Source: Micromonospora sp. NBC_01699
GTDB lineage: Bacteria > Actinomycetota > Actinomycetes > Mycobacteriales > Micromonosporaceae
DNA length: 64,000 nt
Reading direction: 5' to 3'
Assembly (NCBI RefSeq): GCF_036250065.1
Contig: NZ_CP109199.1
Coordinates: 806,001-870,000 of the forward strand
Part shown: positions 1,914 through 38,285 of the stretch, piece by piece
Layout of the letters: each line of letters starts with the position of its first letter
Position numbering within the stretch: the first letter of the stretch is position 1
Program-made: the position numbers and the translations under genes
Notes under the pieces: model-generated
The model's input: only the letters and a program-made list of their open reading frames with translations
What the model was told of the DNA's origin: nothing
The model's database searches: none

Positions 1914-2801
1914 ATGGCAATCTGGCTGACCAAGGACTCGAAGGTCATCGTCCAGGGGATGACCGGCTCCGAGGGCTCCAAGCACACCCGACGGATGCTC
2001 GCCGCCGGCACCAACGTGGTCGGCGGGGTGAACCCGCGCAAGGCCGGCCAGACCGTCGACTTCGACGGCACCGAGCTGCCGGTATTCGCCAGCGTCGCGG
2101 ACGCGATGGCGAGCACCGGGGCCAACGCCACGGTCATCTTCGTACCGCCGCAGTTCACCAGGGGCGCGGTGGTCGAGGCGATCGACGCCGGCATCGACCT
2201 CGCCGTCGTGATCACCGAGGGCGTACCGGTGCACGACACCGCGGCGTTCTGGGCGTACAACGTCAGCAAGGGCGAGCAGACCCGGATCATCGGGCCGAAC
2301 TGCCCCGGCATCGCCTCGCCGGGTGCCTCCAACGCCGGCATCATCCCGGCCGACATCACCGGCTCCGGCCGGATCGGCCTGGTCAGCAAGAGCGGCACGC
2401 TGACCTACCAGATGATGTACGAGCTGCGCGACATCGGCTTCTCCACCTGCGTCGGCATCGGCGGTGACCCGATCATCGGCACCACCCACATCGACGCGCT
2501 CGCGGCGTTCCAGGCCGACCCGGACACCGACGCGATCGTGATGATCGGTGAGATCGGCGGCGACGCCGAGGAACGGGCCGCCGAGTTCATCAAGGCCAAC
2601 GTGACCAAGCCGGTGGTCGGCTACATCGCCGGCTTCACCGCGCCGGTCGGCAAGACCATGGGGCACGCCGGGGCGATCATCTCCGGTTCGGCCGGCACCG
2701 CCGACGCCAAGAAGGCGGCCCTGGAAGCGGTGGGAGTCAAGGTGGGCAAGACGCCAACCGAGACCGCCCAACTCATGCGGGAGCTCATGTCCGGCAACTG
2801 A
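1914..2801 (+). CDS. sucD: Succinyl-CoA synthetase alpha subunit
   Basis: This 295-residue subunit binds CoA and carries the phosphohistidine. A CoA-binding Rossmann domain ([15 protein letters not shown] near residue 12) is followed by the ligase domain with the active-site GHAGAIISG, His about 251. It starts one base after the sucC stop codon and ends just before a strong terminator at 2827, so sucCD is a self-contained bicistronic unit. No anomalies seen. Confidence 0.97.
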
Positions 2802-2826: not shown

Positions 2827-2859
2827 AAAAGGGCTGACCGCCGCGCGGTCAGCCCTTTT
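2827..2859. terminator. Intrinsic terminator of sucCD
   Basis: A perfect 14 bp stem, AAAAGGGCTGACCG (2827-2840) pairing with 2846-2859, has a 5 nt loop and ends in TTTT. Because it is A-rich at the left foot it can act on both strands, serving sucCD and possibly the convergent small gene at 2980. Confidence 0.9.
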
Positions 2860-2865
2860 ACGCGC

Positions 2866-2941
2866 GCCGATCTTGCAGTTGTGGTCGCTCACATATCCGG
2901 ACGAGCACCCCAACTCGGGGCACCACAAGTGCAAGATCGGC
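2866..2941. repeat. Folded intergenic repeat, copy 1 (70 bp core)
   Basis: Outer arms 2866-2885 and 2922-2941 pair over 20 bp with one mismatch (GCCGATCTTGCA with TGCAAGATCGGC). The interior can form two small hairpins (GCTC/GAGC and CCCC-AACTC-GGGG), giving a three-way junction. The 70 bp core 2869-2938 is matched at about 80% identity and equal length by 18809-18878. A G-rich tract (2950-2975) follows immediately. It lies between convergent genes, beyond the ordinary sucCD terminator, so it is not simply that terminator. Confidence 0.85.
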
Positions 2942-2979
2942 GACGAGCCTGGGGGAGGGAGGGGGAGGGGGGGAGGGGT

Positions 2980-3243
2980 TTAGCGCCAGCCGGGGTAGTT
3001 GCCGGTGCCGCGGAGGATCGCCGTACCGAGGATGTTGAGGATGCTCAGCACGATGGCGACCCATCCCAGGACGGGTGAACCGCCGTATCGCCGGGCGTCC
3101 CGGATGGACAGGTAACCGAGGATGACCCCGAGTACGCCGCAGCAGACCAGCCCGATGACTATGCCGAGTACGCCCCACAGCGTGGTCCGGTCCCGACCGG
3201 AGGGCACCGGCCGGGGCGGCGGGTACGGATACTGACCCGCCAT
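2980..3243 (-). CDS. Small DUF4190-like membrane protein
   Basis: An 87-residue protein with a short proline-rich N-terminus (YPYPPPRPVPSG) and two hydrophobic segments at about 22-45 and 57-77, separated by a loop YLSIRDARRYGG. This resembles DUF4190-type actinobacterial membrane proteins; no biochemical role is known to me. ATG 3243 is preceded by GAGGTGAGG, a good ribosome site. It is convergent with sucCD and its 3' end abuts a G-rich tract. Confidence 0.75.
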   Translation of the reverse strand: MAGQYPYPPPRPVPSGRDRTTLWGVLGIVIGLVCCGVLGVILGYLSIRDARRYGGSPVLGWVAIVLSILNILGTAILRGTGNYPGWR

Positions 3244-18718: not shown

Positions 18719-18808
18719 CCCACTCCCACCCATCCCACGTCCCACCTCACTAACGATCAACAAATGCCACCCCCCTCCCCCCCTCCCCCCACCCCCCGTC
18801 ACCGCGCC

Positions 18809-18878
18809 GATCTTGCACTTCCGGTCGTACACAAACCCGAACAAGCACCCCAAATCGGGGCACCACAACTGCAAGATC
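18809..18878. repeat. Folded intergenic repeat, copy 2 (70 bp core)
   Basis: The same element as at 2869-2938: equal length, the same end motifs (GATCTTGCA and TGCAAGATC) and a nearly identical right half (two differences in the 34 nt from CACCCCAA to AAGATCG). The left half has diverged more, and the paired arms keep 9 bp plus GGT/ACC, so some pairing has been lost. A run of C-rich sequence (18765-18798) adjoins it on the left. Confidence 0.85.
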
Positions 18879-18914
18879 GCGACAAACCCCGTGACCACGC
18901 AGCAGGGGGATACG

Positions 18915-18972
18915 CGATCTAGGGCAAATACAGGTGATCGGAGATCAACTCACCTGTATTTGCCCTAGATCG
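18915..18972. repeat. Perfect 23 bp inverted repeat at the DeoR gene 3' end
   Basis: The arms at 18915-18937 and 18950-18972 are perfect complements (start CGATCTAGGGCAAATACAGG) with a 12 nt loop. The right arm contains the stop codon of the DeoR-type gene (18965-18967). It has no G+C bias and is AT-richer than its surroundings. A terminator role is likely; the arms are unusually long and exact. Confidence 0.85.
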
Positions 18973-19738
18973 GCGCGACTAGGAGCTGTCGCACGTGGGT
19001 TTGGAGGGTTTTGTGGGCGGGGGTGGGGAGGGCGGTGTTGGTGATGAGGGTGTGGGCGGCGGACAGGGGGGCTATGGAGGAGATGCCTACGGTGTTCCAC
19101 TTGGTGTGGTCGGCCAGGACGACCAGGCGTTCCGCGGAGGCGATCAGGGCTCGGTTGGTTTCCGCCTCGGTGAGGTTCGGGGTGGTGTAACCGGCCCGGA
19201 CGCTCATTCCGTGCACGCCGAGGAAGACCAGGTCCAGGTGCAGGGTACGGATGGCGGCCACCGCCACCGGCCCGACCAACGCGTCCGACGGGGTACGGAT
19301 CCCGCCGGTGAGCACGACCGTCTGGTCCGGCCGACCGGCCCGGTGGAAGACCTCCGCCACCGGGATCGAGTTCGTCACCACGGTCAGTCCGGCGGTGTCC
19401 ACCAGCCGGTGGGCCAGGGCGGCGGTTGTGGTGCCGGCCGAAAGGGCCACCGCCATGCCGGGCAGGACCAGGTGTGCGGCCGTGGCGGCGATGGCCGCCT
19501 TCTCGGCGAGTTGGCGGGCCGACTTGGCGGCGAAGCCCGGTTCGTCGGTCGAGCCCGACTCGGCGGCCGTCGCGCCGCCGTGCACCTTTGCCAGCAGACC
19601 CCGTTCGGCGAGCAGGTCCAGGTCGCGGCGGATGGTCATGTCGGACACCCCGAACTCGCCGGCCAGGTCGGTCACCCGTACCCCGCCGGTGCTGCGTACC
19701 CGGTCCACGATCGCGGCCTGCCGCTGTTGGGCGAGCAT
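18965..19738 (-). CDS. DeoR/GlpR-family transcriptional regulator
   Basis: A 257-residue regulator with an N-terminal DeoR helix-turn-helix (QRQAAIVDRVRSTGGVRVTD, DMTIRRDLDLL) and a C-terminal phosphosugar-sensing DeoRC domain (LSAGTTTAALAHRL, LTGGIRTPSDALVGP). Start ATG 19738 has GGGAGG 8 nt upstream; an ATG 24 bp further upstream is less well placed. It precedes galT on the same strand with a strong hairpin between, so it may control galactose or another sugar's genes and itself. Confidence 0.88.
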   Translation of the reverse strand: MLAQQRQAAIVDRVRSTGGVRVTDLAGEFGVSDMTIRRDLDLLAERGLLAKVHGGATAAESGSTDEPGFAAKSARQLAEKAAIAATAAHLVLPGMAVALSAGTTTAALAHRLVDTAGLTVVTNSIPVAEVFHRAGRPDQTVVLTGGIRTPSDALVGPVAVAAIRTLHLDLVFLGVHGMSVRAGYTTPNLTEAETNRALIASAERLVVLADHTKWNTVGISSIAPLSAAHTLITNTALPTPAHKTLQTHVRQLLVAPI

Positions 19739-28758: not shown

Positions 28759-28804
28759 CAGAGAAAGAGTGCCTATCCCGGCGTGGACAGGCACTCTTTC
28801 TCTG
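28759..28804. terminator. Bidirectional terminator after the exporter operon
   Basis: A perfect 16 bp stem, CAGAGAAAGAGTGCCT (28759-28774) with 28789-28804, and a 14 nt loop. The arms are A- and T-rich at the foot and sit between convergent genes, so termination in both directions is expected. Confidence 0.9.
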
Positions 28805-29905: not shown

Positions 29906-29990
29906 AAGATCCACCCTGGCCGCACTTTCACTGTTTGAGTGGCTTTTCCGGCTCGGATAACCACTCAAACAGTGAAAGTGCGCGGATCTT
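29906..29990. repeat. Perfect 22 bp intergenic inverted repeat with outer GATC arms
   Basis: The arms 29921-29942 and 29961-29982 (CGCACTTTCACTGTTTGAGT start) are perfect complements with an 18 nt loop. A second outer pair, AAGATCC (29906-29912) and GGATCTT (29984-29990), encloses them with an 8 nt bulge. A G-rich tract follows to 30012, next to the ppc stop. Located between the ppc 3' end and the DUF3533 gene 5' end. Confidence 0.85.
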
Positions 29991-35760: not shown

Positions 35761-38010
35761 GTGAGGGTTAGGGGTAATTGGCGCCTCGGGCTCGGAGGAT
35801 CACGGGGTAGGTCCGCCGCTATGGTGCTACTCATCGCTCTGACCTGGGCGATCGTGACGATCGACCGGGCCGGGGCGGCCGTGGTGCGGCCCTTCGGGGC
35901 ACGGTTCCAGACCAGTGAGCGCGGTGACGTGATCTTCGCGTCGAACACCCTGGTGACCTGCACCCTGCCGGTTCTGATCACCGCACCGAGCTGCGCCAGC
36001 GCCCGCGCCGGCGCGGTCGCCGACAACGACAACTACCTCGCCGGGTACGTCGACATCGACACCAACCTGACCACCCTCAACTCCAGCAGCGCCACCCTGT
36101 CCGTGCCGGCCGGCGGCGCCGTGCTCTGGGCCGGGCTCTACTGGTTCGGCAGCGCACTCAACGGCGACCCGAGCCGGGCACAGATCCGACTGGCCCGGAC
36201 CGGGCAGGACTACACCACGGTGACCGGGACGGTGAGCACCGGCGCGGTGACGACCAACGGCGGGTATCCGTACTCGGCGTTCGCGGACGTCACCGCACTC
36301 GTGCAGGCCGCCGGGGTCTACACGGTCGCCGGCCTCGCCACGGCACTCGGCACGAACGCCCGTGGTGGCTGGGCGATCGTCGCGGCGGTACGCGACTACA
36401 CCCAACCGTTGCGCAACCTCGCCGTCTTCGACGGGTACGCCGAGGTCAACAACAACAGCGGCAGCTCGCGGGTGAGCATCACCCTGTCGAACTTCCGTAC
36501 CCCGACGACCGGGGCGGTCTCGGCCCGGGTGGGTGCGGTCAGCTCCGAGGGCGACCTGGCCTCGACCGGCGACTCGTTGGAGTTCAACGGGGTGAACATC
36601 GGTGACGGGCTCAACCCGGCCACGAACCTGTTCAACAGCTCGATCACCAGGCTCGGCAGCCGGGTCACCGCGAAGACGCCGGACTACGCCAACCAACTCG
36701 GCTTCGACGTCGACTACCTGGCGGTTCCGGCCAGCGCGATCAGCAACGGGCAGACCTCGGCCAGCGTCGCGTTCACCACCGGCGCGGACTCGTACGAGCC
36801 GATCGCGCTGTTCACCGCGATCGACGTCTCCGAACCCGACGTCGACGCCACCAAGACCGCCGCCCGGATCGGTGGCGGCACCACGGTCAACCCCGGCGAC
36901 CAGGTCCGTTACACGATCCAGGCCACCTCGACCGGCAACGAGAGCGCCACCGGTGTGCAGTTCGTGGATCCGGTCCCGAGCGGCACCACGTACATGCCGG
37001 GCACGATCACCGTCGGCGGCTCACCACGAACCGACGCGGTCGGGGACGACGTCGCGCACTGGGACACAGCCAACAACCGGCTGGTGTTCCGGCTCGGCAC
37101 CGGCGCGAACGCCACGGTCGGCGGCACCATGACCCCGACCACGAGCCTGGCGGTGACGTTCCGGGTCCGGGTGATCGACCCGGCCGTCGCGAACCTCGTC
37201 CTCTCCAACCAGGCCACCGGCACCTTCGGCTCACCGACCACGAGCACCCAGTACACCCGGGTCACCGACGATCCCGGCGTGCCCGGTATGACGAACCCCA
37301 CCCTCACCGAGATCAACGACGCACCGATCGCCCGGGACGACACCGCGACGGTGCTGGAGAACGAGTCGGTGACGGTCGCCGTGCTGGCCAACGACACCGA
37401 CGCGGAGGGCGACGCGTTGACCATCGTGGCCGGCAGTCGGCCCACCACCCACGGCAACGTCTCCTGTACGAGCGTGTCGTGCACGTACACCCCGGACCGT
37501 TACTACTTCGGCTTCGACAGCTTCGCGTACACGGCCATCGACCCGGGCAACGCCGTCGCCTCGGCGACCGTCTCGGTGACGATCAACCCGCGCCACTACG
37601 CCGGCCTCTCCATCAGCGTCCCCGACCAGGCCGACCTGGGCACGGCCGTCGGGGGCTTCGCGACGGGGCAGCTCGGCACGGTCACCGTCACCGACGACCG
37701 TGGCCCTTTTGCCGGTGACTGGGTGGTGCTGGTCTCCGCCAGCGACTTCGTCACCGGTACGGCCGGCGCCAGCGCGACCATCCCCAACGACCTCGTCACG
37801 TACTGGTCCGGGCCGGCGCTGGACACCACCGGCAGCGGCACCTTCGTCCCCCAGTACGGCGCGGTGCTGGCCGCCCCACAGGTCGCCGCCCAGTGGACCG
37901 GCGACATCGACCGGAACTCCGCCTCCTGGGACCCCACCCTCTCGGTCGAACTCCCGGAGTTCTTCGTAGCCGGCACCTACCAAGGCACCATAACCTTCTC
38001 CATCCTCTAA
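35761..38010 (+). CDS. Large secreted protein with DUF11 and Ig/cadherin-like domains
   Basis: A 749-residue protein with a signal peptide (hydrophobic 20-36, likely cut after AGA near 40). The first 300 residues resemble the N-terminal part of DUF11-repeat surface proteins (NDNYLAGYVDIDTN, AGLYWFGSALNGD, GGWAIVAAVRDYTQPLRNLA). A DUF11 domain lies at about 364-470 (TKTAARIGGGTTVNPGDQVR) and an Ig/cadherin-like domain at about 515-610 (ARDDTATVLENESVTVAVLA). There is no LPXTG motif or C-terminal membrane anchor, so it is probably released or held non-covalently. Function unknown. Confidence 0.8.
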   Translation: MRVRGNWRLGLGGSRGRSAAMVLLIALTWAIVTIDRAGAAVVRPFGARFQTSERGDVIFASNTLVTCTLPVLITAPSCASARAGAVADNDNYLAGYVDIDTNLTTLNSSSATLSVPAGGAVLWAGLYWFGSALNGDPSRAQIRLARTGQDYTTVTGTVSTGAVTTNGGYPYSAFADVTALVQAAGVYTVAGLATALGTNARGGWAIVAAVRDYTQPLRNLAVFDGYAEVNNNSGSSRVSITLSNFRTPTTGAVSARVGAVSSEGDLASTGDSLEFNGVNIGDGLNPATNLFNSSITRLGSRVTAKTPDYANQLGFDVDYLAVPASAISNGQTSASVAFTTGADSYEPIALFTAIDVSEPDVDATKTAARIGGGTTVNPGDQVRYTIQATSTGNESATGVQFVDPVPSGTTYMPGTITVGGSPRTDAVGDDVAHWDTANNRLVFRLGTGANATVGGTMTPTTSLAVTFRVRVIDPAVANLVLSNQATGTFGSPTTSTQYTRVTDDPGVPGMTNPTLTEINDAPIARDDTATVLENESVTVAVLANDTDAEGDALTIVAGSRPTTHGNVSCTSVSCTYTPDRYYFGFDSFAYTAIDPGNAVASATVSVTINPRHYAGLSISVPDQADLGTAVGGFATGQLGTVTVTDDRGPFAGDWVVLVSASDFVTGTAGASATIPNDLVTYWSGPALDTTGSGTFVPQYGAVLAAPQVAAQWTGDIDRNSASWDPTLSVELPEFFVAGTYQGTITFSIL

Positions 38011-38076
38011 CCCCTCCCGCCCTCCCTCCCTCCCTCCCTCCCGCCCTCCCCGCCGCCCTCTCCCCGTCCCCACCCT

Positions 38077-38137
38077 GTTGATCATGAAGTTAGCGCCGCT
38101 TTTGGCGATCAACAGTGTCGTTAACTTCATGATCAAC
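38077..38137. repeat. Intergenic inverted repeat between C- and G-tracts
   Basis: Arms GTTGATCATGAAGTTA (38077-38092) and 38122-38137 pair over 16 bp. A second GATCAAC at 38107-38113 can pair with the left arm instead, so two alternative folds exist. CCCTC repeats (38013-38072) precede it and GGGAGGGGGT repeats (38142-38170) follow, which could themselves pair or form G-quadruplexes. It separates the secreted protein gene from mfd. Confidence 0.85.
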
Positions 38138-38285
38138 GAGTTGGGAGGGGGTGGGAGGGGGTGGGAGGGGGCGCACGCGGGGTGGGGGTGGGGGTGTGAG
38201 CTGGGGGATAGGGTGGGGGTGGTAGACCCCCGGCCGATTGCGGAGCGGGGGTAGTTGCGTGTGTTGACGTCCGAAGGTAGTGATC

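Follow-up and report, generated by a model that had tools for sequence, protein, structure and literature searches.

The 64,000-nucleotide stretch analysed here (the window) corresponds to positions 806001-870000 of the single 8,280,328-base contig of Micromonospora sp. NBC_01699, hereafter genome G000. Near its left end lies a succinyl-CoA ligase alpha-type gene, whose open reading frame (1698-2801) has Pfam matches to PF02629 and PF00549. The gene is followed by a terminator-like hairpin of its own, with counterparts in the two sister genomes G001 and G002, then by a folded intergenic element (copy 1), a G-rich tract and a small gene predicted on the opposite strand (Table 1). The first-pass annotation had described this element as a 70-bp unit occurring twice in the window, with about 80% identity between copies and a G/C tract beside each. 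The exact pattern GATCTTGCA N45-55 TGCAAGATC was found at 2869-2938 and 18809-18878 only, and in none of 100 dinucleotide shuffles of the window; copy 2 is 85% identical to copy 1 by blastn, and a G/C tract does adjoin each copy. The size had been underestimated: with the outer pairs included, both copies measure 78 bp (20 + 38 + 20).

Table 1. Features of the window discussed in the text
Feature	Position	Strand	Basis or detail
Succinyl-CoA ligase alpha-type gene	1914..2801	+	gene caller; stop 63 bp upstream of copy 1
Separate U-tailed terminator-like hairpin of ligase gene	2827..2859	+	read from sequence; upstream of copy 1
Copy 1, 78-bp element	2865..2942	+	arms 2865-2884 and 2923-2942; interior 2885-2922
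G-rich tract right of copy 1	2951..2978	+	reaches stop codon of predicted small minus-strand gene
Predicted small gene after copy 1	2980-3243	-	weak prediction
C-rich tract left of copy 2	18770..18797	+	sequence
Copy 2, 78-bp element	18805..18882	+	arms 18805-18824 (TTCCGG) and 18863-18882
C-rich tract left of second-type element	38004..38054	+	C/G tract scan
Second-type element	38080..38134	+	arms GATCATGAAGTT / AACTTCATGATC; layout like first type
G-rich tract right of second-type element	38138..38200	+	C/G tract scan

RNA folding of copy 1 reproduced the outer arms and two inner hairpins noted earlier (12+7 bp outer, two 4-bp inner; -43.6 kcal/mol, z -8.1). Copy 2, as had been remarked, has lost part of the outer pairing and folds less well (-23, z -3.7); the TTGTGG of copy 1 is replaced by TTCCGG in its left arm. 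At the copy 1 site, G001 is without an element and G002 has one in the opposite direction, and at the copy 2 site the element is absent from both sisters.

The first-pass proposal had been made to depend on further copies in the genome, and these are present. A covariance model of 30 copies found 65 places in G000 at E <= 2e-4 and one more at E 0.09, with strands merged; 150 of 4258 first-look candidates were scored, so 65 is possibly a lower bound. Exact outer words at the family spacing occur 60 times in G000 (control: 0). The same model found 60 places in G002 and one weak match in G001 (E 0.003). The earlier estimate of hundreds of copies genome-wide overshoots for this first arm type (65 clear places and one marginal); a second type with GATCATG arms, described below, adds 40 exact matches. 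No departure from a uniform chromosomal spread was detected in G000 (KS p 0.23), and copies are depleted beyond 5.6 Mb in G002 (5/60 in 5.6-8.5 Mb; p 1.7e-4 versus uniform).

The proposed search of other Micromonosporaceae also yielded carriers: exact-arm pairs were present in 15 of 250 sampled genomes and in 5 of 44 genera (reversed-pattern controls: 0), six of the 15 genomes having a single pair only. The carriers named among the matches listed are Dactylosporangium, Virgisporangium and Micromonospora pattaloongensis. No exact-arm pair was found in 16 genomes from other families of the same order, and a virus-borne element was rejected on 0 exact matches in viral contigs. Within genera the copy number is patchy, with 119 exact pairs in G080 versus 4 in G121, and one genus can hold both carriers and non-carriers (G000/G002 versus G001; G080/G110 versus G096/G130). 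For arms and placement, we used the 63 of 66 G000 places that passed an arm filter (<=4 mismatches per arm, 6 in total) and 58 of the 60 G002 places, 6439351 and 8033453 being left out. The named genera contributed at least 120 stretches, 80 of them in the arm and placement set and 120 in a later placement and flank set.

In the first-type element, inverted arms of 20 bp (CGNCGATCTTGCASTTGTGG and the complementary sequence) flank an interior of 36-38 bp, and inverted 16-bp arms, GATCTTGCASTTGTGG, are near-invariant. Its length is 76-78 bp in 62 of 63 G000 copies and 89 bp in the other. At locus L199 (2020-2108), the interior between intact arms is 49 bp, which exceeds that of the other copies by about one helical turn. 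With a tolerant model, the inner-arm letters of G000 and G002 are 97-100% constant except at one C/G position, and all inner-arm positions are intact in 55/63 and 52/58 copies, respectively. The named-genera loci were found by their exact arms, so that their arm conservation is no evidence and the statement rests on G000 and G002. The outer positions, CG-N-CGATC, are mostly paired and N varies freely. When G000 and G002 copies are paired at random, the mean difference between their interiors is 39%.

The three-way junction seen in copy 1 does not extend to the family. Pairing in the 30 best-matching copies amounts to 97% for the outer helix, 91% for the CCCC/GGGG hairpin, in which one pair of the four has letters in only 3/30 copies, and 50% for the second inner hairpin. 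In the CCCC/GGGG hairpin, every one of the 14 one-sided standard changes turns C-G into U-G, read on the interior-defined plus strand; 8 cells are unpaired. Covariation between the arms, which had been anticipated, was seen at the variable N position in three of four sets, and clearly at the C/G position in G000, and for the whole fold in 30 copies it exceeded shuffles by little. At N, the two sides match in 37/63 G000 copies (17.9 expected) and 36/58 G002 copies (18.2 expected); among the matches listed, they do so in 25/34 Virgisporangium copies (15.3 expected) and, with no excess, in 34/49 Dactylosporangium copies (34.6 expected). The C/G position matches in 44/63 G000 copies versus 32.9 expected (Fisher p 0.003; G002 p 0.06). 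All these match counts are inflated by kinship among copies. Of 500 shuffles, 25 attained the whole-fold covariation score, and 420 had at least as many pairs with changes on both sides. Most arm pairs show no variation at all, and the arms are better called frozen than covarying. In the loci examined, arm instances numbered 548 paired (overlapping loci counted repeatedly) versus 9 distinct unpaired; these loci were mostly taken around full copies, and several of the unpaired arms apparently lie in coding sequence.

Gene calls around the copies were made with a simple codon-usage caller. Neighbouring genes are convergent for 32/63 G000 and 33/58 G002 copies, tandem for 26 and 20, and divergent for 3 and 3; one copy in each genome lies inside a called gene, and for one in each the caller left the context undetermined. 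In the window as a whole, 6 of 54 gene pairs are convergent (4/36 at gaps of >=40 bp) and 6 divergent; its intergenic bases number 8759, of which 1772 fall in divergent gaps. Among the matches listed for the named genera, 64 loci are convergent, 47 tandem and 6 divergent of 131. A facing stop codon lies within 100 bp of 101 of the 114 G000 and G002 copies that have one (median 43.5 bp), and 40 of 46 copies between tandem genes are nearer the upstream stop than the next start. Element direction is not tied to gene direction: in tandem contexts the same/opposite counts are 11/15 in G000 and 9/11 in G002, and 4 same and 12 opposite in Dactylosporangium among the matches listed.

The flanks of the element are polarised in base composition. 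Over 60 bp on each side of 62 G000 copies, C and G fractions are 0.59/0.16 on the left and 0.15/0.58 on the right, and this polarity holds for either interior direction, in convergent and tandem contexts alike. Little skew (C 0.36-0.40, G 0.32-0.34) is seen at G000 gene ends that lie more than 300 bp from any element, 7 of them convergent and 43 tandem. The skew is weaker in Dactylosporangium and Virgisporangium among the matches listed (0.45/0.28); gene ends there have C 0.40-0.41 and G 0.29 near an element and C 0.34-0.40 and G 0.35-0.37 without one. The C/G flanks may arrive with the inserted unit rather than by selection. At L012, about 100 bp of CCCCCA-type simple repeat follows the stop codon left of the element, and the orthologous gap in G002 is of a few bases.

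Two-sided flank matches at an element in G002 were found for 12 of 63 G000 copies, once the two cross-matches that the double locus L037/L047 produced among 14 matches had been set aside; for some further copies one flank matched. Since most G000 copies are without a two-sided match, gain and loss look frequent. Nine sites, with interiors in the same direction in both genomes, were used as inherited copies because their interiors are closer than those of random G000-G002 pairs (p 1.7e-4). In these nine, 1 of 270 inner-arm sites differs compared with 74 of 329 interior sites (Fisher p 3.6e-20), and the flanking DNA is 88.4-92.8% identical. This comparison covers nine copies from a single pair of species, two of the nine belonging to the same double locus, and it took arm-recognisable copies only, so that fully decayed partners were missed; a filter that passes up to six arm mismatches does not by itself yield 1/270. 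The arms seem to be constrained in place rather than simply decaying after insertion.

The suggestion that the element is a non-autonomous mobile one, REP- or MITE-like, is upheld in part. A left flank of about 103 bp is common to L003, L009 and L024, and a right flank of 41-51 bp to several G000 and G002 copies. These common flanks end in an outer inverted repeat, CTAGACGA..TAA..CTAACTC, and similar ends occur on both sides of L009 and L024, with traces elsewhere; they are not recognisable in most copies. At L018, an intact CTAG stands in G001 and G002 exactly at the G000 insertion point. CTAG also abuts the L018 insertion, the left copy reading CCAG, and is present on both sides of L009; with the CCAG/CTAG pair imperfect, a CTAG target duplication is suggestive, not proven. 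In an empty-site comparison (5 of 9 loci), element-free sister sites among the matches listed were L012, L021 and L024 in G002, and L021 and L007 in G001. Young copies thus look mobile, with their common flanks, outer inverted repeats, CTAG and empty sister sites; the unchanged arms of inherited copies fit poorly with pure selfish decay.

Membership in the REP/RAYT system was not borne out. The check for RAYT genes gave 0 PF01797 (Y1) matches in G000, G001 and G002, which leaves a RAYT-driven REPIN without support, and none was found in G041, G071, G080, G090 or G110 either. Among 16 genomes, PF01797 turned up in two: G121, which has 4 exact pairs, and G010, which has 8 pairs and where the PF01797 matches are partial and close to contig starts. 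Of 14 control genomes, 5 gave matches. Scans for arms or outer repeats in approximately 1.6 Mb of loci found no related autonomous element. The two close copies at 961.5 and 962.7 kb were considered as possible neighbours of a transposase, which is unsupported; the gene between them is a 290-aa ORF, which also lies between two copies in G002.

A scan for 50-bp stretches of >=72% C or G found one close C-then-G tract pair in the window, around a 55-bp hairpin with a second arm type (Table 1). Mean flanks of 17 such GATCATG-type elements are 0.52/0.21 on the left and 0.22/0.52 on the right. Of 55 genomes examined, 17 have GATCATG-type arms at either spacing, with 9 of 40 genera represented (controls: 0); they include genomes with a single exact first-type pair and each of the three members of this genus (40 pairs in G000, 25 and 45 in the others). 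Paired differences between the two types keep the dyad (CTTG/CAAG versus CATG/CATG; TTGTGG/CCACAA versus TTATGG/CCATAA), the arm variants being GATCTTGCASTTGTGG, GATCATGCASTTGTGG and GATCATGAAGTT. The G000 site shares its right-hand side, and that side only, with G001 and G002, where second-type elements adjoin the same sequence. G001 and G002 agree in the end of the left-hand gene and in the G-rich flank on the right, and their arms are identical but for one base at the C/G position. Their 30-bp interiors, however, are 6 edits apart when one is reversed versus 13 directly, unrelated pairs being 8-14 apart either way; we read this as a probable inversion of the loop in place. The G000 interior has the direction of that in G001 (12 versus 18 edits) and is reversed relative to G002 (9 versus 15), distances of 9 and 12 being within the unrelated range. 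Flipped first-type sites at L001, L013 and L194 were not counted as inversions: their interiors are no closer than random pairs (0.39-0.42 versus 0.39, p 0.91), so that they may be independent insertions.

From these sequences we infer that the copies are mobile in origin and were then kept for their arms. The reading that we tentatively prefer, at somewhat short of an even chance, is that extragenic dyad hairpins spread as small non-autonomous insertions, apparently at CTAG, and were then retained at gene ends for their arms, where they would form a two-way transcript-end or read-through barrier. Coming from either side, transcripts would first meet sequence rich in C and poor in G and after it a strong hairpin; Rho-like loading on the C-rich RNA and template-strand G tracts may help. 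The interior would be a spacer under little sequence constraint, flipped by exchange between the arms. Because the arm sequence is kept, and not only its pairing, a sequence-specific factor would read the two arms, as a protein on the DNA dyad or on an RNA stem; termination alone does not explain the frozen arm sequence. A two-way barrier with such a factor joins most of the observations, namely insertion, gene-end placement, symmetric flank polarity, fixed spacing and frozen arms. Against the barrier stand the terminator-like hairpin that already follows the ligase gene ahead of copy 1, the U-tract not seen by eye in 30 copies and an element direction that is independent of gene direction.

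The main rival is a miniature element, MITE- or REPIN-like, that is wholly selfish and without a host role: a transposase recognising the arms would move it in trans, and the arms would look invariant because only intact copies transpose and are counted. We consider it unlikely. It does better on turnover, given the patchy copy number within genera (119 pairs in G080, 4 in G121), the two-sided flank matches of only 12/63 G000 copies and the young copies with common flanks, outer inverted repeats and a CTAG site, and worse on the constraint on arms in place: inherited copies keep their arms (1/270) while interiors change (74/329). Against it also stand the arms occurring as pairs (548 versus 9 unpaired, in loci mostly around full copies) and the lack of a Y1 gene in the eight genomes listed above as PF01797-negative.

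A site read purely as DNA, in which a nucleoid, segregation or repair protein binds the dyad on two arms and transcription is incidental, would suit the fixed spacing (76-78 bp in 62/63 G000 copies), the strand-symmetric layout without orientation bias in G000 and the mismatches tolerated at two arm positions; the strong 3'-of-gene placement, the positions mostly not found in both species and the lack of a chromosomal pattern common to species (G000 KS p 0.23; G002 p 1.7e-4) make it rather improbable. Less probable still is a transcribed structured RNA, a 3'-UTR stability or processing element, despite the very stable fold of copy 1 and a CCCC/GGGG hairpin that is 91% paired with one-sided standard changes all C-G to U-G: the other inner hairpin is 50% paired and not kept, element direction is independent of gene direction, and the window holds no gathering-level Rfam match. 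The barrier reading may be extended to a Micromonosporaceae-wide system in which a trans-acting factor reads paired 16-bp arms (GATC[A/T]TG[A/C]A[C/G]TT...) at gene ends and insulates transcription units, its sites derived from mobile elements, with arms kept by selection and a spacer that drifts and flips. This extension is doubtful; if it were true, the arm 'dialects' GATCTTGCASTTGTGG, GATCATGCASTTGTGG and GATCATGAAGTT would reflect coevolution with the arm-reading factor.

Bidirectional intrinsic terminators sit between convergent genes, and the element resembles them in position, strand symmetry and strong hairpin, stable hairpins after stop codons being what was found. It differs in its near-invariant arm sequence across genera and in the U-tract, none of which was seen by eye after the stem in 30 copies, where other, often G-rich, sequence stands. 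The elements are small and gene-less, as MITEs are, and young copies look MITE-like in their outer inverted repeats, apparent CTAG target and insertion missing in sisters, but the conserved part is the internal dyad, not the ends, and most copies are without recognisable ends. REPs and REPINs, as described in PMC3733652 and PMC3116915, are likewise short high-copy extragenic palindromes forming inverted doublets with a spacer and a predicted hairpin, and the family shares this trait (65 clear places; 1/63 inside a called gene). CGTC REPs are also said to have no dedicated transposase, and GTAG families have stems of 6-13 bp, compared with 20 bp here. The present family further differs from REPs by its lack of an unpaired GTAG/CGTC tag at the stem foot and of a RAYT in G000, by arms unchanged in inherited copies and by C/G-polarised flanks.

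Neisseria uptake sequences in terminators are also conserved short sequences in close inverted pairs, said in PMC2397512 to terminate transcription; the spacer is about 37 bp here and 21 nt or less in the grouping given there. An uptake-sequence terminator was rejected because single arms are rare (9 distinct unpaired versus 548 paired, in loci biased to full copies). The loop inversion recalls chloroplast stem-loop small inversions, which, according to PMC2939885, span 5-50 bp flanked by 11-24 bp repeats and invert an interior between inverted arms at an orthologous site, whereas the stem here is a dispersed, sequence-conserved repeat. No description of this hairpin family was found in the literature searched, subscription papers lying mostly outside it, and the arm strings appeared as text only in three papers on plants or salmon. 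With arms seemingly constrained in place, the family is a dispersed bacterial palindrome on which such constraint can be tested. Should there be an arm-reading factor, pull-down ought to identify it, and the elements would become candidates for two-way insulators; genera with carriers and non-carriers make a trans-acting partner searchable by gene presence.

Rfam gave 0 matches at gathering level anywhere in the window. Laxer searches gave none for copy 2 and, for copy 1, only matches far under the gathering threshold; a known Rfam family was rejected, the laxer matches being of microRNA type and all far under gathering scores. The best of them covers 18910-18978, a neighbouring inverted repeat, not copy 2. 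This repeat, a perfect 23-bp one (CGATCTAGGGCAAATACAGGTGA, 12-nt loop) at 18915-18972, adjoins copy 2 in DNA missing from both sisters and is possibly another hairpin family. More hairpins were noticed at window positions 28759-28804 and 29921-29982 and in L261 from position 187; the loop of the 29921-29982 hairpin ends in CTCGGATAA, as in L261.
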